Of a stretch of 64,000 nt of DNA, positions 2,207 to 64,000 are shown one piece after another. The notes below the pieces were generated by a model. The model worked only from the letters and a program-made list of their open reading frames with translations, was not told the origin of the DNA and did not search any database. The translations under genes and the position numbers were made by a program. The stretch comes from Haliotis asinina (Eukaryota > Mollusca > Gastropoda > Lepetellida > Haliotidae): contig NC_090288.1 of NCBI RefSeq assembly GCF_037392515.1, forward strand, positions 60,001,673 through 60,065,672, in the 5' to 3' direction. How positions within the stretch are numbered: position 1 is the first letter of the stretch; the number at the start of each line of letters is the position of its first letter.

Positions 2207-34461
<32,255 letters not shown>

Positions 34462-40867: not shown

Positions 40868-43047
40868 CTACAAGAGGAAAGGTAGCATGGATGCAAATCC
40901 CTGTTGACCACCCCAGGACCCCCCTTGTGCCTGGCCCCCAGAATTCATCTGGCTGGCCATCATGAAGGGGAGCATCGAGTTTATGCTCATCTCTCCTCCA
41001 GACATCGCCATCATCATGAGCGGCATCATCTTGGATGCTCCACCTCCTCCTTGCGACATAGCCATCATCATCAAGGGGTTCATGCCCTCTCCTCCCCCTC
41101 CGTTCAGCAGCAGCAGCGGCATCATGTCCATCATGTTCTTGTTGCCCCCTTTTCCTTGCATCATTGACATCATCATCATCATCTTCCTGGTCTCGGGGCT
41201 GGCACCACGTAGCAAGAATGGAAGCATGGAGGCAAACTGGTTTTGTTGGCTGCTGGGCTTGGTGTTCATTGAGCTTGCTCCTGATCTGCTATACATTGTG
41301 GAGCCTGGTCGTGACATCATTCTGGAACCCATTCCTCCCATCGATGATCCCATACTTCCCATTCCAGAAAAACCTGAACCCGTCCCAGACATTGGGCTTC
41401 CTCCCAACCCTGAAAGCATAGCAGAAAGGGGTCCCGACGGCATGCCTGTGACTGGTTGCATCCCTGCTGGACGGGCACCGAAAGGTATAACACCCGACGA
41501 GCCCATGCTCATTCCACCGAACATTGGATTCCCTTGATTGAGACTAGACTGAGAAGTTCCGGTATTTCTCGGTAGGTTAGCAAGTGCTGGAAAAGGGTGA
41601 CTACGTTGCTGACCAGTGAAGGGACTACTTGCTGGACTGCTGCCGGACTGTACGCCTGACGTGGGATTAAACATAGTATTCATTGTGGGGCTATTCAGTG
41701 CGCCAGACATAGGGTTGGTTCCAAGATTATTCTGGTTCTGTGAGAAGGGGTTAGTGGTTTGACTATTCTGGTTCTGCGAGAAGGGGTTAGTGGTTTGACT
41801 ATTCTGGTTCTGTAAGAAGGGGTTAGTGGTTTGACTATTCTGCGATGCCATCACAAGGTGGTTTTGAGTACTAGGACCTTGATTAGTTGTGGGTTGGTTC
41901 TGTGTTGAAGAGGATGGAGGACCAGAAACTAGATTGTTCTGCTGGGAAGCAAAGTTATTTAACGGACTGTAGGCATAAGGCAGAGAGCTACTTTGCGTTC
42001 CGGAATACGGGTTTGACGGGGACCCGTTATGCTGAATGGGGTAGGTTCCAGGAGAAGAGCTTGTTTTTTGGCTAGAATAAGGAAGCATCTGAACATTTTG
42101 TCCTGATGGGTACTGACTGGCAAATTGAGTATTTGGGTCGACGGCGTTTTGAACGGGAAGGGGGACACTGGGGTCAGCTGGGTTAGGAACGGGCAGAAGA
42201 TTGTTTGAGTTTGTAGAATCTGGTAGGGGTGATTGGCCGTTTGGACCTGAATATGGATCAGGATAGAAGCCAGGTGTTCCGGCGAATGGATCCATCGTTC
42301 CACCTGTTGCTGGGGCATTGGCATTGCTGCTACCGGCCACTGGGGCTGCCATGTTGTTCATGAGGTCGAGAGGACCACTTCCAGACGGTGCAGCTAGGGG
42401 ATCGTAAGGAGCTCCAGATGGAGGAGCTTGGGTATCGTAGGGCGTTCCTGAAGGTGGAGCTTGGGCATCATATGGCGCTCCCGACGGCGGTGCTTGGGTG
42501 TCGTAGGTCGTTCCTGAAGAAGGAGCCTGCGTGTCGTAGGGCGTTCCTGCAGTTGGAGCCTGTGGGTCGTAGGGCGTTCCTGTAGGTGGAGCCTGCGGGT
42601 CATAGGGCGTTCCTGAAGATGGAGCTTGGGCATCATAGGACGCTCCCGACGTTGGCGCTTGGGTATCGTAGGGAGCTCCAGAAGCTGGAGCTTGGGTATC
42701 ATAGGGAGTTCCTGGCGGTGGAGCTTGGTAAGGTGTAGGTGAAGGCTCTTGACCTGCAGGGAAGAATGTTTTGCATTATGCCTCTGAGACGTCATTGCAG
42801 TCACAAGTACTGGCCCACGTCTGTAAAACCGGGTTAAAGTGTCACTCAACGTAGCTCAAGCAGCTCTCAAGAATAACCAATATGGCATGTGTTCCGTAAA
42901 AATGTGCAAATAATGACTAAACTGCACCCGAGGTGTTGTGTTGTTCTTAGAACATATTAATGTATGTAACATATATAAGTGGTCGGCATTCTACTCACCA
43001 GATGTCAACGCCAGAAAACACACAAGCCCAATCAAAGTCAACTTCAT
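40868..43047 (-). CDS. Secreted Met-rich repetitive protein, paralogue A (644 aa)
   Basis: Two coding exons, 42999-43047 and 40868-42753, join in phase 1 (donor gtgagt, acceptor cctgcag). Residues 1-17 (MKLTLIGLVCFLALTSG) form a signal peptide, so the product should enter the secretory pathway. About residues 18-145 hold ten 11-residue repeats of the form QAPxxGxPYDx, rich in Pro, Tyr and Asp. The middle is Asn/Gln/Ser-rich with a 12-residue NSQTTNPFSQNQ repeat (36-bp DNA repeat near 41735-41830). The last ~130 residues form a Met-rich domain with spaced MLPFLL, MMPLLLL, NPLMMMA and MMPLMMM boxes, ending FASMLPFLL. Paralogue B, 8 kb away, shares the C-terminal domain and gene structure. No enzyme motif is visible. 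Met-rich secreted proteins are known from mollusc nacre (for example MRNP34 of pearl oysters), so a shell-matrix or adhesive role is plausible but unproven. Confidence 0.9.
40904..41320 (-). other. Shared Met-rich C-terminal domain of paralogue A
   Basis: Contains FASMLPFLLRGASPETRKMM, MMMSMM, GGGGEGMNPLMMMAMSQGGG and MMPLMMMAMSGGEM. The aligned part of paralogue B has AALLPYLLRGGMSPETKKMI, MMMSMM, QGGGEGMNPLMLMALTQGGG and MMPMVMALLSGSEM. The order of boxes is the same and SPET(R/K)KM and GGGEGMNPLM are nearly invariant, which shows common descent rather than convergent low complexity. Confidence 0.88.
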
Positions 43048-43058
43048 CTTCTCAGCTG
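42999..43058 (-). other. Paralogue A signal-peptide exon with 11-nt 5' UTR
   Basis: Acceptor gtttcag precedes cagctgagaag and the ATG at 43047-43045. Sixteen codons plus one base follow, then donor gtgagt. The start is chosen because it gives a clean signal peptide directly joined in phase to the large exon. Confidence 0.85.
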
Positions 43059-44573
43059 CTGAAACAAATAGCATACCAAAAAGATGTGTACATCGGAGAA
43101 TCTGGTGCATGAGGTCAGCGTCTCAACTGGCGTTGATTTGAACCGAGCATTATGTCACAAATGGACAAGATGGAACACCTGGTTTCGACACATCCTCTAA
43201 CACCTGCTTGGTGTATTGTTTAATACATTTGGGTTAAAGTCATCCACAGAACAATAAACTACCAAGGTACCTTCGACATGTGAAGTTGGATTGAACTCGT
43301 CACCGGCGTTATCGCTATAAGCGGTTAAGCTTCAAAACTGTCATCGGACTGAACACACAGGGTTTGTGCATGGACAGTAACTTCGAGTTACTTAATAAAT
43401 CCTTAAACATTTCTTTAAGAAAACATAATTACATATGTACCAATTTTATCAAGTTGGGTTCTTCGAACATCTTTATCACGGTCGACAGATTACAGTGCAA
43501 GTTGCCAGGTATGTCTAGCGACATCGTCATTTTAACGTTGCTAAAAAAAAGGTTTGCCACCATTTTGCGTGGCCATTTCAGAAACACACCATTTCGTACA
43601 AGTGATCGGAAGTTTTACAGTTTTGACGTGACTAAGGGTAAATGTTTAAATCAGGTGAACAGACAAATTCTTCACTTCACGAGAAAACATCCGTGCACAA
43701 TGGAAACTTTCTTTTAGTATATACTTCTAGGCCAAATGTAGAGATGGCATCAAAATCAGGTAATATGATACACCCAGCCTTATCACCCATACTGCATATC
43801 TTGGCCATGTTGAGCACCAGCGCTTGTCAACTCCCATTAGACAATGTGATCAATACTCAAGCAGTTTGCCTATGAACATGTGGACACTGTTTCAACAGTG
43901 GACTGAACCCAGTTAGTTTTCAGTAAATTGATACCTCCAGTAGGTAGTTCATCAACATCAACAAGAATATTTGGACGGTGGGAAGTGTCATACTAATTAC
44001 TGTATAACATGTTTACTTCTGCTTAGAGATCCTAAAAGATATGGACTTTTCTAGCATTTGGCCTATGACTATATATACCTGCATGACCTTGAGCCAAAGA
44101 CTTGCTCGAAATAAGGTAGTGAGTATTGAGTAACGCACCGTTACGCAATATTCTAGCAGTACCACAGTCCGGAACACCAGTAATGTATCTTCAAACTTTA
44201 TTCCCATGTTAGGAATCGAACCTGATTTTCGGCATGACGTCTCAGTGCTGGTGCACTGCTTACTGTACGGCTCGTGTACAGGCGTTTTGTCTAAGGACAT
44301 GAAGTAATGTGCTGTAGTGTGCTGCAGTGGTGCGAGTCGTGTGGATGCACGTTACGTATTCATAACCTACAAAAGTGAACGCTTGACAATCCACCCCTTA
44401 TCTTCCCTGTACATAACGTGTTGATTGGCATGTATTAACTGTACCTGTTTTTTTCCAATTCAACTTCTAATGTTCACGATTTCGATTGCATTATCAAAGT
44501 GATTCACTCACACGAAGATGCTGATAATCACAAATGCATATATGTTGCGGTTGTATAGCCTAGTGGTCAAATC

Positions 44574-44943
44574 GTATATATACTACAAACAAAAAGTATG
44601 GGATCACCCTAAAATTTATAGTCAAATACAAACCAGCTGCATCGGGAGTCTGTCTAGCTTATGCCCTAGTTTGTTGTGTTTGATCGGTTGTATGAAACAT
44701 GGCCTTGGTGTGTTTCAACACCCTTGTTTTTCGCTGATTTTATCCATCTTTCATTTCACTCACACCCAATGAATACTGAATCATTTGTTTCACTGCAAAT
44801 TTTAACATGCCGTCTGAAGTGTCCATTAAACACACAAAACGTTGCATTTTCCTAAGAGTGTAAATGACCGCTCCACGTTGAAGTGTATACATAATTATCA
44901 GCAGTTAAGGTGTTCTTGTATTTTTTGTTTATAGTATATATAC
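44574..44943. mobile_element. ~370-bp MITE with Tc1/mariner-like ends
   Basis: Left end 'gtatatatactacaaacaaa' then aagta; right end reversed 'gtatatatactataaacaaa' then aaata. Ends in TA-rich sequence fit TA target choice. 'aaaaagtatgggatcaccc' follows the left end. No transposase inside. Confidence 0.65.
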
Positions 44944-44984
44944 ACATATGGATAGCCGGTAAAACTGCCCTTATTTGAAAAGCA

Positions 44985-45150
44985 TGGAGGCAGTTGTAAA
45001 TCCAATGGTTAAAGTGTTAGCTCGTCACTCCGAAGATCCTGGTTCGATTCCCCACCTGGATACAATGTGTGAAGCCCATGTCTAATGTTCCCCCGCAGTG
45101 ACATGGCTAGAAAATTGCTAATGGCGGGGTAAAACGAAACGCACTCTCTT
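44985..45150 (+). mobile_element. SINE copy in intron 1 of paralogue A
   Basis: 'ccaatggttaaagtgttagc', 'gaagatcctggttcgattcc', 'tacaatgtgtgaagcccatg' and 'gttcccccgcagtgacatgg' match the SINE at 1914-2063 block by block. The box B-like ggttcgattcc is perfect. Confidence 0.8.
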
Positions 45151-45235
45151 CAGAAGCATGAATAGGTATCTAACAGTTCCTCCTATTACTACCCCAAACA
45201 ATATCATAGCAAGAAAACCATACAAGATGACTCAC

Positions 45236-45295
45236 CTGTGTGGGGAAGACTGACTTCGAGCAGTGACGGGCTGTATCATCTACTGTGGCTATATA
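45236..45295 (-). promoter_or_regulatory. Paralogue A core promoter and non-coding exon 1
   Basis: Minus strand: TATATA at 45295-45290 is followed about 30 bp on by a likely start site near 45265. A short exon then runs to cccacacag/gtgagt at 45236. The layout repeats that of paralogue B (52570-52612). Upstream, an inverted pair 'atccatcactgact' (about 45318-45331) and 'ggtcagtgatggat' (about 45438-45451) may be regulatory. Confidence 0.65.
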
Positions 45296-45459
45296 CCCAG
45301 ATATGACAGGAAGACATCCATCACTGACTGGATGACCACATGAACCTTTGTTTTACACGCCACGGTGTCACGACAGACGTCGCTGTCCAAGCCTTTGTTG
45401 CAAGCGGGTGTTGTACAACGAGTCGGATGTAGACCAGGTCAGTGATGGATGACCAGCGT

Positions 45460-46974
45460 AACATCTACATTAGCAACTTCTACTTTAGTGACAGCGTTGT
45501 TTGTGGAGGTCGCCGATGACTGGTAACCTACGCAGTTGATTCGCATGTGACACGTTTTGACAGGAGTGTCAGTTCTTCATGTACGGACATACCTCACTCA
45601 AGTCGTGGGGATTTCAATGTATGAAACTTCGAAGGAACGAGATCCAGTCTTTCGGACAAGTCCTGAAGAGATCGTCGTAATACGATATTGAGGCTTCACC
45701 CAAGCAACGGTATTAACTGGTAGCGGAGCGCATTAGTGATTTATTTAAGAAATGAATGGGAGTGGGTCTGCCAAGTCATACCATAAGTTGAGGATGTCTG
45801 CAAGTCTTAATCACCATTCTCATCGCGTCTCACGATCTCCCGCTTTACAACAGCTTTTAGATAATCGCGAAAAAACTCACATAACCTAAAAACCTCGGTT
45901 TTCCATCCCGGCTCAAACAGGTGTGTTTTAAAAGATGATGAGGACATACCCTACAGGCAAAAGGGGAATTACATCGCACGTCCTGTTTGTCAGCGATGTG
46001 CCAAAGTTGGAGACACGTTCTCGTACCTGAAGCTTTACTGAGACATTGGCTCTTGTCTTGATCAAATGATTACATTTCTTTCAGGGGCGTTTTAGAAGTT
46101 GTGAAGATGAAGGAGGTTCTGTGGATAGTCGGCTTTATTGCATTCAATATAAGACAGACGTTGACTATCCACAGAAGCAAGAGTCGTATGAATGTCCTTT
46201 ATTCTATATAACTATTCTGTTGCTGCAGCTGTTGTTTTTTATTCAAGAAGGGGTGCATATATTACACATACACTTTTACCTGATATGACTAGGTAGCTGG
46301 TATGTAAAGCTGAAATGGTGTTCTTTGAGAGGCTGTTGATTGTTATGTTAGCTCAAAGCGTGGGGAAATAATGCTTGTACAATCAGATGTGTTTTAGTGA
46401 CAATCACTGGTTTGTCTGGTTCAGGGTCGGTTTGTTTGCAAACAACATGATATTGCTGTAATGCTTCAGAAGCAAATATATGCTCATGATATAGTACCAA
46501 ATATACTACCGACTCTGCTTTAGTCAGAGATTTTTTATGAATGTGGAAAGGGTCTTGTCGCTCCTGTTTGGATGACAAGGTTGACATCATTGTTGTCTCT
46601 TTGCTGGTGGTGACTTACGAACTCCAGACAATACACAAGCAGCGTTCTGGTATTGCAGCATCTCATATGATGTGTTCTATACTGTCTCTCAGCTCTAGGC
46701 TAACAAAATGCATATATGCATCACGTTGCCTTTTATAAGAAACATCGGTTGCTTTAGAACTTGTACATTTTGTAGTACTTGCTTAATTTGGACTTTTGCT
46801 ATAACTTGTATTACTTGTATAATGGGTTTTATTTGTAGAACTTTACAGCTTTAGTAACAGAACTATGTATGTGAATTCACATATAAATTGTATTGCTTGT
46901 ACACCTTGAATTATTTGTGTTACCTCTACTACATGTAGAACTTGTACGAATTGTGTCCTAATCCAGTTACAACC
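45460..46974. other. Intergenic region, no gene seen
   Basis: No supported gene. A 13-bp inverted pair tctgtggatagtc/gactatccacaga sits at about 46130-46172. Loose repeats of 'acttgtac'/'tttgtagaact' occupy about 46755-46960, just before the 52-bp array. Confidence 0.5.
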
Positions 46975-47985
46975 TGGAAATGTTGAAACCCTAGCAGCTA
47001 TCTGTCGGTACCGCTTGTTTCCCTGTGATTACTGTTGAAACCCCAGCAGCTGTCTGTCGGTACTGCTTGTTTCACAGTGATTACTGTTGAAACCCCAGCA
47101 GCTGTCTGTTGGTACTGCTTGTTTCACAGTGATTACTGTTGAAACCCCAGCAGCTATCTGTCGGTACCGCTTGTTTCACAGTGATTACTCTTCAAACCCC
47201 AGCAGCCATCTGTCGGTACCGTTTGTTTCACTGTGATTACTGTTGAAATCCCAGCAGCTATCTCTCGGTACCGCTTGTTTCACTGTGATTACTGTTGAAA
47301 CACCAGCAGCTGTCTGTTGGTACTGCTTGTTTCACAGTGATTACTGTTGAAACCCCAGCAGCTATCTGTCGGTACCGGTTGTTTCCCTGTGATTACTCTT
47401 GAAACCCCAGCAGCTATCTGATGGTACCGCTAGATTCCCTGTGATTGCTGCTGAAACCCCAGTAGCTACGTGTCGGTACCGCTTGTTTCACTGTGATTGC
47501 TGCTGAAACCCCAGTAACTACGTGTCGGTACCGCTTGTTTCACAGTGATTGCTGTTGAAACCCCAGCAGCTATCTCTCGGTACCGCTTGTTTCCCTGTGA
47601 TTACTCTTGAAACCCCAGCAGCTATCTGTCGGTACCGCTTGTTTCACGGTGAATTACTGTTGAAACCCTGGTGGCTATCTGTCGGTACCGCTAGTTTCCC
47701 TGTGATTACTGTTGAAACCCCAGCAGCTATCTGTCGGTACCGCTTGTTTCCCTGTGATTACTCTTGAAACCCCAGCAGCTATCTGTCGGTACCGGTTGTT
47801 TCACGGTAATTACTGTTGAAACCCCAGCAGTTATCTGTTGGTACTGCTTGTTTCACAGTGATTACTCTTGAAACCCCAGCAGCTATCTGATGGTACCGCA
47901 AGATTCCCTGTGATTGCTGCTGAAACCTCAGTAACTACGTGTCGGTACCATTAGTTTCACAGTGATTACTGTTGAAATCTGTCTT
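46975..47985. repeat. 52-bp minisatellite (about nineteen units)
   Basis: Unit: 'tgttgaaaccccagcagcta' then 'tctgtcggtaccgcttgttt' then 'cacagtgattac'. Most units keep ggtacc. Variants with 'tgctgaaacc' and 'ctacgtg' recur as groups, indicating expansion of blocks of units. No promoter or gene association is visible. Confidence 0.92.
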
Positions 47986-48184
47986 CATGGCGATATGGGT
48001 CCCCACGATTTCGTCAAATGAAACAGTGTTTGTCCTGACAATGACTCCTGTTACCTCATGGGAAGTTAAATGAGCATTGCTTTTTCGAGATGAGATAATG
48101 AGATTTGCATATTTGCGTTTGATAATGGCCATTCCTGAAAAATTAAGCCGAATTATGACAACCTCTGGACATTTAAGTGAAGCA

Positions 48185-48330
48185 TTTGACAACTATCGTA
48201 TCTTTGGACACAGGTGCAGAACGTCTCTTGAGACACATGTGCAGTGCGTCTCTTTAGACACAGGTGTAGTACGTCTCTTTAGACACAGGCGCTGTACGTC
48301 TCTTTAGACACAGGTGTAGTACGTCACTTT
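48185..48330. repeat. 25-bp tandem array (five units)
   Basis: Unit 'acacaggtgtagtacgtctc' plus tttag. It adjoins the 37-bp array that follows and is separated from the 52-bp array by about 200 bp. Confidence 0.85.
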
Positions 48331-48344
48331 GGAGAGCATAAAGT

Positions 48345-48680
48345 AAATTCTGGTATGTGACAACCAACATAGGCATAAAACAAAGCCCGTATTTGACAAC
48401 CAACATCGGAATAAGCCAAAGTGCAGTGTTTAACAACCAACATCGGAATAAGCCAAAGTGCAGTGTTTGACAACCAACATCGGAATAAGCCAAAGTGCAG
48501 TGTTTGACAGCCAACATCGGAATAAGCCAAAGCGCCGTGTTTGACAACCAACATCGGAATAAGCCAAAGTGCAGTGTTTGACAACCAACGTTGGGGTAAG
48601 GCAAAGTGCAGTGTTTGACAAGTGAACTAATATCGGTTCAAAGAAAATTCCAGTTTTTGACAACCAACATTTATGTAAAC
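48345..48680. repeat. 37-bp tandem array (about nine units)
   Basis: Unit 'gtgtttgacaaccaacatcg' then 'gaataagccaaagtgca'. Since 37 is not a multiple of three, all three minus-strand frames carry the same peptide text out of phase, a clear sign that these frames are not genes. Confidence 0.9.
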
Positions 48681-48689
48681 CAAGACGAT

Positions 48690-49550
48690 GTATACAGACA
48701 ATGCTATTGAACACTTACTACGACCATTCCTCGTGTTGTTTACATAACCATTAATACTTGGAATATCTTGAATCCAATACATGAAAAGGTTTCACGAAGT
48801 CCCTATTCGATATGAATGTCCACAAATTACAAGAGTAACTGATTGAGTTTAATGCTGTTATAAACAGAATTCAATACAAGATAATTTACGAAGCTGAGTA
48901 ACAAAACGTGATGCGGATGATTGCATTAAATTGGCGGTTTAACACCACATTACTGGAGGTCATGAGGTCACAACAATGTGGCAAGACTTGACGGAAACAA
49001 CACGTGATGGAGGAGCCGTCATGGCAGAGCATGCTTCAGTGTAAAGCCCTCATCGTCACTACGCGTACACCATCAACAGCGTTCGTTGCAACTGGTGACA
49101 TACGACAAAACTACGATTTTCCTGATCACCGAAGTTGTTTATTTGTTAAGAGTTGTTACTTAACGTAACATAGAAGTACTGACATCCCCTAGAGTCACTA
49201 GTAAATCTCAAAATAACACCTCGTCTTTTCCCGCCGATCTATGCAGAAAATGCATTTCGCTAGTGTATTTTTTATTACTTTTTTTTTAGCTTTTAGTTTT
49301 AGGAAGATGTTGATTTATAATTACAGAGTTGCGATGGTCAGAATCGTACAAAGGACAATGATCAACTGAAAGGTATCGGTTTTGTTCTGTTACATAACCT
49401 TTAGTCTTCCAGTGTCCCATATTTCATTAAGACTGCACGGTTAATGTTAACCCGGTATATTGCAGTACGTGTTGTAATGTGTTTTCCTGTAACCGGTAGA
49501 TCTTAAGCTCCCCAATACATAGTAACACGGGCACCAGAATTGCAATATGT
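48690..49550. other. Intergenic region, no gene seen
   Basis: No exon, RNA gene or clear element recognised between the 37-bp and gagtgagtggg arrays. Confidence 0.5.
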
Positions 49551-49554
49551 GGGA

Positions 49555-49915
49555 GTGAGTGAGGGAGTGGGTGGGTGTGTGGGTGAACGAATGAGTGGCA
49601 GAGCGAGTGGGTTGGTTGGTGAGTGGCTGAGTGAGTGGGTGTGTGGGTGAACGAATGAGAGGCACAGCGAGTGGGTGGGTTGGTGAGTGAGTGAGTGAGT
49701 GGGTGGGTGTGTGGGTGAACGAATGAGTGGCACAGCGAGTGGGTTGGTTGGTGAGTGAGTGAGTGGGTGTGTGGGTGAACGAATGAGGCAGAGCGAGTGA
49801 GTGGGTTGTGAGTGAGCGGCTGAGTGAGTGGGTGTGTGGGTGAACGAATGAGTGGCAGACCGAGTGGGTGGGTTGGCGAGTGAGTGAGTGGCTGAGTGGG
49901 TGAGTGAGTGTGTGT
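49555..49915. repeat. G/T-rich minisatellite (about five ~64-bp units)
   Basis: Units combine 'gagtgagtgggtgtgtgggt', 'gaacgaatgagtggcagagc' and 'gagtgggttggttggtgagt'. The minus strand reads as open THSPTQPL-type text in several frames; rejected as coding. A (gca/gga)n microsatellite follows at 50025-50060. Confidence 0.88.
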
Positions 49916-50119
49916 GACTTTACATGTTAGTGAGCAATGTTCCAGATACACCTGCGGCTGGTACATGCCATGGTCTTTGTAATGATAGTCGTAGTTGTGA
50001 CAGCTGCAGTAGTAGCATGTGTTGCAGCAGCAGCAGCAGCAGGAGGAGGAGGAGGAGGCAATAGCCTACCCTGCTATTATTCTCAAAGATCTCATCGACA
50101 GAATTGGGTGAAAGATACA

Positions 50120-50369
50120 TTTATTAACTTGTTAACAAATATACAAACAATTTTGTGTAAAACCACACAGTGGCATGCAAATATCAAAAACAGTCACGTA
50201 ATGAAAACAATGCTAGATTTGTATTCCTTTTATCATGTCTCATAGTCCTTTTGCTGTTCATACTTCAGACACACACGCATTGGCACACAGTGAGCAATCG
50301 ATAAGCTTAAGACAATAGACCATATCGTCTAATCTCCACACATGTAATCCATCATCACGTGAACGTTAT
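50120..50369 (-). terminator. Paralogue B 3' UTR with AATAAA poly(A) signal
   Basis: The minus strand has AATAAA at 50125-50120, about 245 nt beyond the stop codon, so cleavage is expected near 50100. The UTR is AT-rich without obvious structure. Confidence 0.6.
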
Positions 50370-52201
50370 TTAAACAACTCTGTTCATTCCCATCATAGGA
50401 GCAGCTGACTTCTGACTTCCCCACGCGCCACCCTTGGCGTGAGTTTGACTCTGCATCTGCATCATCATGTAAGGGAGCATGGTGCTCATGTTCATCTCAC
50501 TACCAGACAGAAGCGCCATCACCATCGGCATCATCATGGATGATGATCCTCCTCCTTGGGTCAGGGCCATCAGCATCAGTGGGTTCATGCCCTCTCCTCC
50601 ACCCTGTGCCATCAGGAGAGGCATCATCATCATCATCGGGTTTGACTTGGAGCCGCTGGAGCCACTTCCGCTCATACTAGACATCATTGACATCATCATG
50701 ATCATCTTCTTTGTCTCGGGCGACATGCCTCCGCGGAGCAGGTAGGGGAGTAGTGCAGCCATCGGGTTCTTGGTAGCCTTGCTGGATGGTCCGGAAGTTG
50801 CAGTCGTGGATCCTCCTACTGGATGGGGAAGTTTGCCCTTACCGAAAGTAAATTTGCTGGCAATGTTTTGGCCTGTCATGGCGGCGATGGCGTCCAGAGG
50901 TCCAGACATGGCACCAGTGCTTCCAGACATACCCCCTGGCATCATGGGGCCCATTGGGTTGGACATATCGCCGGTCATACCGTTGGACATACCGGACATA
51001 GGGTTGGACATACCAGACATAGAGCTGGACATACCAGACATAGGGCTGGACATATGCATACCGTTGGACATACCGGACATAGGGCTGGACATATCGGACA
51101 TAGGGCTGGACATACCGGCCATATGGTTGGACATACCGCTACTCACGGAGTTAGACATACCTGCCGTTGGTTTGGACATACCGCCTGTCATGGAGTTGGA
51201 CATACTGCTCATTTGGTCGAACATACCGGACATAGGGCTGGACATACCGGACATAGGGTTAGACATACCGTTCCTGACTGAGTTGGACATATCGGCCGTT
51301 GGTTTTGACATACCGCCGGTAATGGAGTTTGAAACGCTGGCCATTTGGTTGAACATACCGATCATTGGATTGGACATACCAGCCATTGAATTGTCCACTG
51401 GGTTGGAAATACCGCCGGCCATGGAGTTGGACATACTGATCGTAGGGTTGGACATAGGGCTGGACATGGGGTTGGACATGCCAGCCATGGGGTTGGACAT
51501 ACCGCCGGCCATGGAGTTAGACATACTTGTCATTGAGTTCGACATAGTATTGGCCATACCAGCCATTGGGTTCATCACATCGGACATCATTCCACTCATA
51601 CCACTAATAGGTGCGTTTGCCCCCATTTCGGATGTCGAAGGAGATGCTTGTCCTCCCATTCCTACACTGGTGGTAGCTGACATTGCAGCCATTCCTTTGA
51701 CAGCCTTTCCCAAGGGTCCAGATGCAGTGGGGTCGGGTCCGCTACCTCCAAGCGGACCTGTCGCCTGTCCGCCGTTCGGGGCATGGCCTGAATCAGCTGG
51801 CTGGCTAGAACCAGTTCCTGGTGGGGACTGACCTATAATAAATGAAATGATTTGATACATGGGCAATTATTGACAGGAAATAGGGCATAGGTAAAGTCTC
51901 GCTAATCCAAAATCATACTTCTATGATGTGACATGCCGTGCTTCCCCGTGCCAAGTGTAATGAACGAACGCGACGTATGTCTAGACGTTAAATGCATACA
52001 TTAGTTTAGTCTCTGACACCGAAAGTCGATGTTGATATACCTTTGAAGCCACTAGAAGCTTCCAATATTCAACTGGTTATTATAGGACATCCACAACCTT
52101 ATTATATGTCTGAGGGAAAGTACGGAAGAGTCATGATCTGACTTACCCTTAGTAAGGACGAGAATGGCAGCCAGCACTCCAACACACAGAACCTTCATCA
52201 T
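50370..52201 (-). CDS. Secreted Met-rich repetitive protein, paralogue B (505 aa)
   Basis: Coding exons 52147-52201 and 50370-51832 join in phase 1 (donor gtaagt, acceptor attatag). Residues 1-19 (MMKVLCVGVLAAILVLTKG) are a signal peptide; the second Met could also be the start. A Pro/Gly/Ser region of about 90 residues follows (QSPPGTGSSQPADSGHAPNG). Next come over 30 short MSNPMxGMS- and MSSPMSGMS-type repeats, in which Met recurs every three or four residues. The last ~130 residues are the Met-rich domain shared with paralogue A (LLPYLLRGGMSPETKK, GGGEGMNPLMLMAL, MMPMVMALL, MLPYMMMQ). The 11-residue PYD repeats of paralogue A are absent. There are almost no charged residues in the repeats. 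Function unknown; a secreted structural, matrix or mucus protein is my inference. Confidence 0.9.
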
Positions 52202-52206
52202 GGCAA
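52147..52206 (-). other. Paralogue B signal-peptide exon with 5-nt 5' UTR
   Basis: Acceptor gtgttacag precedes ttgcc and the ATG at 52201-52199. Eighteen codons plus one base follow, then donor gtaagt. Intron 2 (51833-52146) has the same phase and position relative to the signal peptide as in paralogue A. Confidence 0.85.
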
Positions 52207-52569
52207 CTGTAACACCAAAAACAGTACCACTGTAGAAACTAGCAACGTGTGCATGTTATAAAGAACAACTTAGGAATATCCTGAGGAATACCCTAAATAA
52301 TACTAATACACAATAGATTTACCAAGCAGTATCTTTAAGACGAACCAACGTTGATTTCAAGGAGCATGGTGGTATTAGCTTCACTTCTTGCCAAAGGAGC
52401 TGGTTTGACTGAGTACAAGGCCATTAACTTTGTCATGATATAGCTCGAATATTGCTAAAAAGCGGCTTAAAACCCAACTCACTCACACACTCACTTTAGA
52501 ATCGCTTCGTTGCCAACACTCTTACTCTGAGAGTTGAATGAAGGAACACACGAGTAAAGTTGAACTTAC

Positions 52570-52612
52570 CAGTGGTGATGTGTCGACATTGAGTTCCCTC
52601 CTGCGTTATATA
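52570..52612 (-). promoter_or_regulatory. Paralogue B core promoter and non-coding exon 1
   Basis: Minus strand: cgggggTATATAacg, TATA box at 52612-52607. The donor gtaagt (52569-52564) follows catcaccactg, so exon 1 is very short (about 10-15 nt if the start is 30 bp after the TATA box). The matching TATA, leader exon and intron plan in paralogue A supports both. Confidence 0.6.
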
Positions 52613-52619
52613 CCCCCGA

Positions 52620-55959: not shown

Positions 55960-56120
55960 ATAAAAGTGAGTGAGTATGTTGTTAAGCTGCTTTTAACAAT
56001 ATTCCAGCAATATCATGTCAGGGACACCAGAAATGGGCTTCCCACATTATACCCATGAGAAGAATCAAACCCAGGTGTTTGGTGTAATGAGCAAATGCCT
56101 TTACCACTAGGCCTAGTCCA
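55960..56120 (-). mobile_element. SINE copy, reversed
   Basis: Plus strand shows the reverse complement of the family: 'gtgagtgagtatgttgttaa', 'caatattccagcaatatcat', 'gacaccagaaatgggcttcc' and 'ataatgagc'-like box A region ending 'taccactaggcctagtcc'. Moderately diverged. Confidence 0.7.
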
Positions 56121-61758: not shown

Positions 61759-63994
61759 CTGCAACATCAATACAAGGAGGGTGAAAATTGGGAGTAAATG
61801 TCATTGATTTGAATTTGTTCAATTACAGAATGATCAGTTTCTGAGACAAATACATCCTAATCCCTGCATACAAGACAATACCTAGAATGACAACAAATTC
61901 GACTGAAATGCTAACTTTACATCAGTATCTAGTTATGACAAAGTTGTTATGTCTTCACTTGAAATGATTTTTAGTTTTATGACTGGTAAAAATATACTGT
62001 TTCTTCTGATTGTCCCAATGTCACTTATCTACCTGGATATATGGTATACATACATACCTAGTCCACCTGCACACACAACCTTTCCTCCTACAATCCCAGC
62101 AGCCATATCACCTCTCTTCGTAGGCATCGGTGTGCCCACCTTCCAGGTCTCTACAAGCAAAGTTCTAGAGTAATGACACCATGTGTGCAGCGTTTCTTGA
62201 TTTAACACCTTTCAATTTCAGAGGTAAATTGAAACCTGCTACTATGAAAATGGAACAAACATCAGTCTAAAAGTTTTGAAAAAGCAAAAGGCACCTGCTC
62301 TTTGTATGTGCTGTTATATGGCAGTAATTAATATTGGTTGTCTAACACTGGTCCAAGTATTTAATAGCGTACATGTCATATCAAGTGAATGGATGTAGGG
62401 ATCAGGCAGAGTTGTGGAATACAATACAAGTTAAGAAAGGGTGGATCCAGAAGGAGGGTGCAAGGTGTGCACCCCACCCACCCCTCTTCTACCTCGAAAA
62501 TATTTTCCCTGACGTGCATTTTCCCCCTAGTCTTTGGAGTTTATGATATGCAAGGTTTTTTATTGTAGAAATAGAAGGGGAGACAACTTTTACATCACAT
62601 CTGACACGTGTTCAGAACTGCAAGCACCCGCGAATGTTCGATCCTGAAACCTGTGCCCAAACTAGCACCCATGAAACATCCCCAAAGCTACCTCCCCAAG
62701 CGAACCAAGATGGCAACCATAAATAATGTCATTCAAAAAACAAAAGTAGCAAACAAGAAAGGCAAGATTTATGGATGTCAACTTCTTTATTGTGAATGAC
62801 ATGACATTCAGAGCATATGCTTGCTCCTTCATCAGAAGCCATAATGTCATTCATCACCGCTCGCCCCTTTCCGTAACCATCCAGAAGACAAGAAGCTATT
62901 TGGCTTGTCCCACAATAACAGAAGTTGGTCACAAACGGTTTAATGTAACCAAGTGCTTGCATCCGTTCAGGGCCAGTGCAAGCACTTGCGGGAAGTAACA
63001 GTGTGGACGCTCATGGTTCTGAACATGCCTCTGTATTACACTTGGGGATAATCATGAAACCCAAGTTCCTAATCTGATTAAAAAATTGGCTTGAAGCCTT
63101 GAATCCTGTGTCCATATCTTCTCTTATACACAGGTAACTTGTATGACATTATGGTAGATACAAGTGCTATGTAATTCATACTCAGATGAAAACAAGTGAC
63201 ACTGATATTACACAGGCTAGGATGACATTGAAGAATCAGCACAATGTATATTTATCCCGACTTTTTTATTCGGCAGTGTTTTGACGTAGATTCTAATGTT
63301 GTTGTCAAGCATGCGGTTGAGTTTTCTATGACAACGTCCTTAGAACCACTTGCTTGACAACAACATAAGAATCTATGTCAAAACGCCACCTATAGGTATA
63401 TCCATAAAAATTATTGCCATTCTTCATCTCCATAACTTCTACAGGCAGTCATATGAAACACTGAAAGGTGTTCCAGGAAAAAAGTTGATAAAAATGGCAA
63501 CAATGATGGCCAAAATGATATATACGTTTTTATGTTGAATTTATTTATTTTCTAAAGTTTGTCTGAAAACTGATATAGTTGACACAAGGGTATCAACTGT
63601 GATTTACGGTCAAATGTTTTAGTGGGTTGGAATCGATGGTTACAAACAGGATAACTTAACAAATCTGTTAAGAACTACAGTAATTCATTAAAAAACAAAA
63701 TAAATATATCCTACTTAGTATCACATCATGAATGGTATATTTGTACTTACTTTTCTCTATATTAAAGACTTCACAGACATCAGAGAAGCCGAGGTCGGGT
63801 GGTTGCTGCAGTCCCCCAAGACTGTAGATGTTGGTGTCGTCCGTCACATACATTGGGAACACACGCTTGCTAGGAACAGCAGGTAGCTTTTCCCACTTCT
63901 TGGTCTCGAAGTGATACACCTCGAAAGCATCTGTGGGAATCTTACCCTGTCGTCCACCTGGAACAGATGCCACCAAACTCTCCATGTCTTGAAA
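61568..63994 (-). CDS. KLHDC8: Kelch domain-containing protein 8-like, last three exons
   Basis: Exons 63751-63994, 62058-62150 and 61568-61758 join in phase 1 at both introns. They read GGRQGKIPTDAFEVYHFETK, KWEKLPAVPSKRVFPMYVTD and DTNIYSLGGL; then KKTWKVGTPMPTKRGDMAAG and GGKVVCAGGL; then GNTGKPLQVVEAYDPASNTW, CACIMFKNRLHVIGGLS and a final SSCMEALSYS. Kelch blades show the GG...W spacing, and the order matches the C-terminal half of vertebrate KLHDC8A/B (FEVFDIETRSW, YSLGGL, VVKNCLLAVGG, VEAL near the end, as I remember it). A beta-propeller scaffold in the cytoplasm is expected. Orthology to A or B is not decided. The 5' part is outside the window. Confidence 0.88.
62058..62150 (-). CDS. 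KLHDC8: KLHDC8 penultimate exon (93 nt)
   Basis: Acceptor tgcttgtag and donor gtatgt. It reads TWKVGTPMPTKRGDMAAGIV then GGKVVCAGGL and half a Gly codon. The vertebrate counterpart has GSLSGRVIVAGGLG at the same place. Confidence 0.88.
62440..62545. repeat. Fragment of a dispersed 'ggatccagaaggaggg' repeat
   Basis: 'gtggatccagaaggagggtg' followed by 'gtgcaccccacccacccctc' and a C-rich stretch. It resembles one end of a mollusc MITE-type repeat; the partner end was not found. Confidence 0.35.
62765..62836 (-). ncRNA. Hammerhead-like unit related to Penelope terminal repeats (decayed)
   Basis: Minus strand reads ctgatga, a stem-like segment 'aggagcaagcatatgctct', then gaatgt where GAAA is expected. 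It is followed by the family phrase 'aaagaagttgacatccataa'. It lies in the KLHDC8 intron. The altered core makes cleavage unlikely. The same unit appears twice, inverted, at 2416-2575 and once at 32835-32873. Confidence 0.45.
63272..63388. repeat. Foldback element with ~37-bp arms in the KLHDC8 intron
   Basis: Left arm 63272-63311 ('gttttgacgtagattctaat' then gttgttgtcaagca) pairs with the right arm 63351-63387 ('tgcttgacaacaacataaga' then atctatgtcaaaac). The spacer is 39 nt. Only a few mismatches. Likely a MITE or foldback transposon. Confidence 0.8.
63751..63994 (-). CDS. KLHDC8: KLHDC8 exon at the window edge
   Basis: 244 nt, donor gtaagt; the presumed acceptor tagcag occupies the last six bases of the window (64000-63995 on the minus strand), so the exon would be complete. 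It begins FQDMESLVASVPGGRQ, whose GGRQ matches a KLHDC8 blade; the internal ATG at 63985 is therefore probably not the start codon. Confidence 0.82.
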
Positions 63995-64000
63995 CTGCTA

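Follow-up and report, generated by a model that had tools for sequence, protein, structure and literature searches.

Methionine-rich, repeat-bearing secreted proteins are known from mollusc shells (PMC2989941, PMC3374290, PMC4094399, PMC6003135, PMC7591529). In the abalone Haliotis asinina, three of 14 shell proteins are described as Met/Gln-rich (PMC2989941); in Haliotis laevigata, idb_20008 is described as a disordered protein of the prismatic layer that is secreted and has 13 repeats GMGNPM/TX, idb_4071 as a Q/P-rich major shell protein with repeats and with one stretch that matches Lottia MRP_LOTGI (Lotgi1|173200, B3A0R7), and CLC_12027/idb_54497 as a major shell protein with G/M-rich repeats after the signal peptide (PMC6003135). 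Lottia shell proteomes also contain methionine-rich proteins (PMC3374290, PMC4094399); Lotgi1|231186, a major shell protein of Lottia gigantea, has 481 amino acids (aa), 12% Pro, 19% Gly and an isoelectric point (pI) of 4.6, its C-terminal half being R/H-rich and its last 49 residues (aa433-481) 27% Met (PMC3374290). In Pinctada, methionine-rich regions are reported in most of the identified insoluble scaffold proteins; knockdown to about half by RNA interference of NU-5, which has such a region, left the nacre tablets abnormal, and a Met/Glu-rich part of NU-5, produced as recombinant protein, aggregates with calcium at pH 8.0 (PMC7591529). M- and G-rich shell peptides are reported from an Antarctic clam, the function of such domains being called enigmatic (PMC5105077), and three more papers name methionine-rich matrix or shell proteins in text that gives no details bearing on the present case (PMC4660305, PMC5607911, PMC11336291). 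Domain or motif shuffling, recruitment and slippage have been proposed as modes of shell-protein evolution (review, PMC4897951). Here we analyse two genes, A and B, on the minus strand of a 64,000-nucleotide stretch of the H. asinina genome (contig NC_090288.1, positions 60,001,673 to 60,065,672 of the forward strand; hereafter the window, in whose coordinates all positions are given).

We propose that A and B are probably tandem paralogues encoding mantle-secreted, methionine-rich, repetitive low-complexity shell-matrix proteins, for which we infer the tissue and the function. Both have two of the features of this class of mollusc proteins: an apparent signal peptide, and short tandem repeats with biased composition. 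The kind of protein is already known from shell proteomes; A and B are a specific new pair. Neither this pair nor a methionine-rich domain homologous beyond composition and joined to arms that are not demonstrably related was found in print (among the open-licence papers listed, main texts), and the motif GGGEGMNPLM does not occur in the 40 open-licence papers listed of 127. Nevertheless, the novelty implied by an earlier reading of this DNA (hereafter the original prediction) is less than thought: methionine-rich, repeat-bearing secreted shell proteins and a GMSNPMx-like abalone repeat have been published.

The evidence that carries the pairing is a domain at the C-terminus of both proteins:

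40871..41242, minus strand: gene A, C-terminal Met-rich domain, 124 aa
50373..50771, minus strand: gene B, C-terminal Met-rich domain, 133 aa

The two domains are identical at 71 of 118 aligned residues, and their local alignment scores 333 (BLOSUM62), compared with maxima of 110, 145 and 224 among 500 shuffles each by single residues, 5-residue blocks and 10-residue blocks. Judged by this alignment, the domains of A and B are homologous beyond composition. At the DNA level, the match between A and B (67% identity, 402 columns) covers essentially the domain only. Its non-synonymous (dN) and synonymous (dS) divergences are 0.32 and 0.99 by NG86 and 0.30 and 0.90 by YN00, giving a dN/dS of about 0.32; these are point estimates from 118 codons, without confidence limits. 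The third codon position differs most (49 of 118) and the second least (24 of 118), and different codons are used at 26 of the 48 identical residues other than Met and Trp. On these measures, the domain coding sequence is under constraint, i.e. purifying selection.

Six short hydrophobic boxes of Met/Leu, recurring about every 18-19 residues, make up the domain together with Gly/Ser-rich linkers and a few Lys/Arg. With the top value over lags 12-25 of 1000 block-shuffled sequences as reference, the autocorrelation at lags 17-19 was equalled in 0 of 1000 for A and gave a p of 0.034 for B, where the signal is less clear, and the low-confidence short helices that AlphaFold places on the two-sequence domain alignment coincide with the boxes. 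The C-terminal end of A, FASMLPFLL (40871-40897), is an exact nine-residue copy of A's own first box (41210-41236), as if a second domain copy had started and then been cut off. In the window, a methionine-rich segment (60 aa, at least 15% Met) occurs in 2 of 232 six-frame stop-to-stop open reading frames (ORFs) of at least 60 aa, namely A and B. A third domain copy was looked for in the window and rejected: the weaker matches are A and B themselves or short stretches near 24.7 and 26.4 kb, with expectation values (E) of at least 0.12. The original prediction did not recognise the domain from a named family, and we find none either: Pfam gave no family up to an E of 1, whether for A, B or the B domain, NCBIfam no match for either domain, and the PDB sequences no match for the B domain or the two-domain profile. 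Rfam gave no match at gathering thresholds. No domain pattern match was confirmed among 70 in viral contigs or 550 in prokaryotic genome contigs, as expected for an animal gene.

The two genes also share one plan, as the original prediction had it: a TATA-like box and a short non-coding exon 1, then an exon for the signal peptide that stops in phase 1, and a single large exon. Protein A has 644 aa (45298-40868) and protein B 505 aa (52615-50370). The exon joins are those predicted from splice signals and open frames, and the transcription starts are likewise predicted:

45290..45298, minus strand: gene A, TATA-like box GGGTATATA, placed by position and sequence
45236..45270, minus strand: gene A, non-coding exon 1; 3' end at the donor (ACAG|GTGAGT), 5' end assumed from the TATA box
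42999..43058, minus strand: gene A, exon 2 with ATG and signal peptide MKLTLIGLVCFLALTSG, ending in phase 1, 60 bases
40868..42753, minus strand: gene A, exon 3, mature protein, stop included
52607..52615, minus strand: gene B, TATA-like box GGGTATATA, placed by position and sequence
52570..52590, minus strand: gene B, non-coding exon 1; 3' end at the donor (ACTG|GTAAGT), 5' end assumed from the TATA box
52147..52206, minus strand: gene B, exon 2 with ATG and signal peptide MMKVLCVGVLAAILVLTKG, ending in phase 1, 60 bases
50370..51832, minus strand: gene B, exon 3, mature protein, stop included

The four introns, 2177 and 245 bases long in A and 363 and 314 in B, all have GT-AG ends. Intron 2 is in phase 1 in both genes and coincides with the apparent cleavage site (..LTSG|QEP in A, ..LTKG|QSP in B), the signal peptides, read as hydrophobic N-terminal exons, and the cleavage sites being judged by eye rather than by a prediction program; because the intron splits a Gly codon there, the mature A and B chains would start with Gln. 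Each precursor has a single Cys, inside the signal peptide, so that the mature proteins have none; their pI is 4.76 for A and 9.36 for B. An AATAAA lies about 244 bases past the stop of gene B; gene A has an ATTAAA about 446 bases past its stop, and its first AATAAA comes only at about 1321 bases. Predicted tryptic peptides are SHPFPALANLPR, GASPETR and SGASSMNTKPSSQQNQFASMLPFLLR for A, and LPHPVGGSTTATSGPSSK, NPMAALLPYLLR, GGMSPETK, GGAWGSQK and SAAPMMGMNR for B, and the arm repeats would yield only very long ones, of 229 and 154 residues for A and of 141 and 140 for B. The interval between the two genes contains a tandem array with a 52-bp unit, in about 19 copies (46981-47977). As a whole, the two-gene observation of the original prediction was carefully described and is confirmed; two details need correction, in that SPETKKM, given for both proteins, reads SPETRKM in A, and the large exons are 7.6 kb apart instead of the 8 kb given for the genes.

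Domain homology, purifying selection and the identical exon plan together indicate that A and B descended by duplication. After the domain, the second-best DNA match between them is a 49-base piece of the first introns, part of a dispersed element that has further copies in the window (55964-56055 and 30711-30762) and that presumably resembles repeats of abalone genomes:

45005..45146, minus strand: gene A, intron 1, dispersed-repeat relic, 90 bases past exon 1
52366..52484, minus strand: gene B, intron 1, dispersed-repeat relic, 86 bases past exon 1

A gapped alignment of the two relics (142 and 119 bases, same strand) scores 27.5, compared with a maximum of 23.5 in 500 shuffles. Their matching offset suggests that the insertion preceded the duplication, which would then have taken in the promoter and the first exon.

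The arms in front of the domain are built of tandem repeats:

42379..42728, minus strand: gene A arm, 33-bp array, about ten 11-aa repeats (QAPxSGxPYDx) with one Tyr and one Asp each
41728..41842, minus strand: gene A arm, 36-bp array, NQNSQTTNPFSQ repeats
50951..51546, minus strand: gene B arm, tandem array of 7-aa repeats GMSNPMx / GMSKPTx (21-bp rows 50951-51388, 45-bp row 50951-51546)

Arm A (503 aa) starts with about ten QAPxSGxPYDx repeats and continues with an Asn/Gln/Ser/Thr/Pro-rich part and a Gly/Ser/Met-rich part adjoining the domain; the PYD and Asn/Gln repeats had been pointed out before, the stretch directly before the domain had been omitted. The arm is acidic and Pro/Ser-rich, with 20 Tyr, 2 Lys and 4.6% Met. 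Arm B (353 aa), of GMSNPMx-type repeats, has 17.3% Met, 2.0% Gln and no Tyr; His makes up 0.6% of arm A and 1.1% of arm B. GMxNP[MT] occurs five times in arm B and the looser GMx[NSKD]P[MT] nine times, with no occurrence of either in A. As arm B is a repeat array, a shuffle control on GMxNP[MT] is trivial, and the weight lies in the match of type to a reported shell repeat: idb_20008, as described, shares with arm B the 7-residue pattern GMxNP(M/T)x (GMGNPM/TX there, GMSNPMx / GMSKPTx here).

Aligned with each other, the arms score 181, which is z 3.2 against 200 residue shuffles (maximum also 181) and z 1.5 against 200 shuffles in 7-residue blocks (maximum 225). By this comparison the arms are not demonstrably related; the original prediction called them unrelated. 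Distant homology of the arms was considered and rejected: the best ungapped shared segment, SGPLD, scores 19.1, compared with a shuffle mean of 16.2 (standard deviation 1.7, maximum 20.7, n = 60), which is not significant. SGPL stands twice in each arm, around the repeat regions (A residues 142 and 456; B residues 56 and 328); insignificant as a shared segment, it may hint at a common layout only. Of the secreted structural system arising by duplication and arm replacement that the original prediction envisaged, the duplication and the secreted structural character hold; arm replacement fits A and B, and slippage of ancestral repeats would look alike.

In the mechanism that we propose, the C-terminal domain would self-associate outside the cell through its Met/Leu boxes, without disulfides, and so pack the chain into an insoluble organic scaffold. 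Such a scaffold is suggested by the Pinctada work, in which the recombinant Met/Glu-rich part, not known to be a homologue of the domain of A and B, aggregates with calcium at pH 8.0. The arms would determine the chemistry that each chain contributes: arm A may provide an acidic chain whose Tyr, one every 11 residues in the first array, could form oxidative cross-links, and arm B, within a basic protein, would supply two Met per 7 residues through its repeats. Gene duplication would have come first; the domain would then have been kept by selection, while the arms were altered beyond recognition through slippage or replacement.

Several points weigh against this shell-matrix interpretation. 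The copy near 55964-56055 matches relic A at E 2.8e-10 and relic B at E 1.5e-9, whereas the A and B relics match each other only at E about 1e-4; since the relics are not each other's best match, they do not prove shared descent and may have been inserted independently, which weakens intron 1 as proof of the duplication. The AlphaFold domain model is poor (mean predicted local distance difference test, pLDDT, 50.5; predicted template modelling score, pTM, 0.21), so the helices on the boxes are only suggestive. Reported shell proteins were compared with A and B by their published descriptions, not their sequences. By those descriptions, idb_20008 is Q/G/P-rich, with a 24-Gln block and Q/P-rich repeats, whereas arm B has 2.0% Gln and no such block, and owing to this lack of a long poly-Gln block we do not file B as idb_20008; MRP_LOTGI has 20 Cys and GAMP/GSMP repeats, in contrast to the Cys-free mature A and B. 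Furthermore, two of the shell proteome papers warn that such similarity may be compositional (PMC3374290, PMC6003135), and work cited in one of them holds the low-complexity shell proteins of H. asinina and Pinctada maxima to be unrelated and convergent (PMC6003135); the function of NU-5 is therefore not simply transferable to A and B. Finally, a paper on Crepidula shell proteins (PMC11401363) and one on the genome of the scaly-foot snail (PMC7142155) do not use the word "methionine" in their main texts, so that neither reports the class by this name.

Other explanations account for part of the same evidence. A and B could be structural proteins secreted by some other tissue, for the periostracum, the mucus of the foot or hypobranchial gland, the operculum, an egg coat or an adhesive, and assemble in the same way outside mineral; signal peptide, Tyr repeats and Met-rich repeats name no tissue, but the closest repeat that we found in print, GMGNPM/TX, is described from a shell-layer protein (PMC6003135), and we regard a different tissue as unlikely, though a good deal less so than the alternatives that dispense with a scaffold. 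One of these is metal handling, with the closely spaced Met of arm B binding copper(I) or absorbing oxidants. Spacings of 4 and 7 between the Met residues of arm B are indeed far above shuffles (z 6.8 and 8.5), but they follow from its 7-residue tandem repeat, and arm A has only 4.6% Met, the mature proteins have no Cys and both arms are poor in His, making this explanation very improbable. Equally hard to credit is that A and B are non-functional, i.e. decayed or unexpressed duplicates whose repeats merely remain open: the arms are low-complexity arrays and A has no AATAAA within 1.3 kb of its stop, but each gene keeps a long open frame, its signal exon and splice sites intact, and synonymous change exceeds non-synonymous change in the domain.

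Elsewhere, the window contains fragments of a Tc1/mariner-like transposase, split between two frames (HTH_Tnp_Tc3_2 and DDE_3; 20274-21121, plus strand), and an exon-like ORF with a Kelch repeat (63671-63997, minus strand). A 39-bp tandem array of 16.6 copies (5204-6016), open on both strands and with weak, below cut-off Pfam matches, is probably a minisatellite rather than a gene.

Among the described shell proteins, Lotgi1|231186 resembles A, by description, in its pI (4.6, compared with 4.76) and its Met-rich C-terminus; it differs in its 19% Gly, its length of 481 aa and its R/H-rich C-terminal half. MRP_LOTGI and GMP_LOTGI (Lotgi1|239174, B3A0R1) are described as shell-matrix proteins with Met-containing repeats or Gly/Met bias, as in A and B, and GMP_LOTGI is set apart by its 186 aa and pI of 11.2. 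Pinctada NU-5, LMP and MRNP34 (the last through mentions in other papers) are similar to A and B in having Met-rich regions and in coming from shell or ligament; NU-5 is unlike them in its size of about 180 kDa and its Glu-rich regions. The compositions and motifs of idb_4071 and CLC_12027/idb_54497, as described, differ from those of A and B.

Abductin and spider silk proteins are repetitive and extracellular, and silks pair conserved terminal domains with variable repeats; their likeness to A and B is an analogy only. Neither A nor B nor the B domain matches a Pfam family. A bolder reading, for which we see a small chance, treats the Met-rich domain as a distinct assembly module that is inherited as such, a Cys-free counterpart of the silk terminal domain. 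It would condense in calcium-rich fluid and could harden by Met oxidation, and selection would preserve it while tandem paralogues exchange their arms to supply different shell layers, one version acidic and bearing Tyr, the other basic and bearing Met. If so, it would provide a traceable homologous core for shell proteins that are now filed as unrelated low-complexity sequences. Similarity among such shell-matrix proteins is often ascribed to composition (PMC3374290, PMC6003135), and the A/B pair at a single locus allows this to be tested, its domain being constrained and homologous beyond composition and its arms not demonstrably related. A profile of the domain could show whether the scattered methionine-rich shell proteins of gastropods share descent. 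A and B also offer a simple natural experiment, in which repeat arms change around a fixed module.

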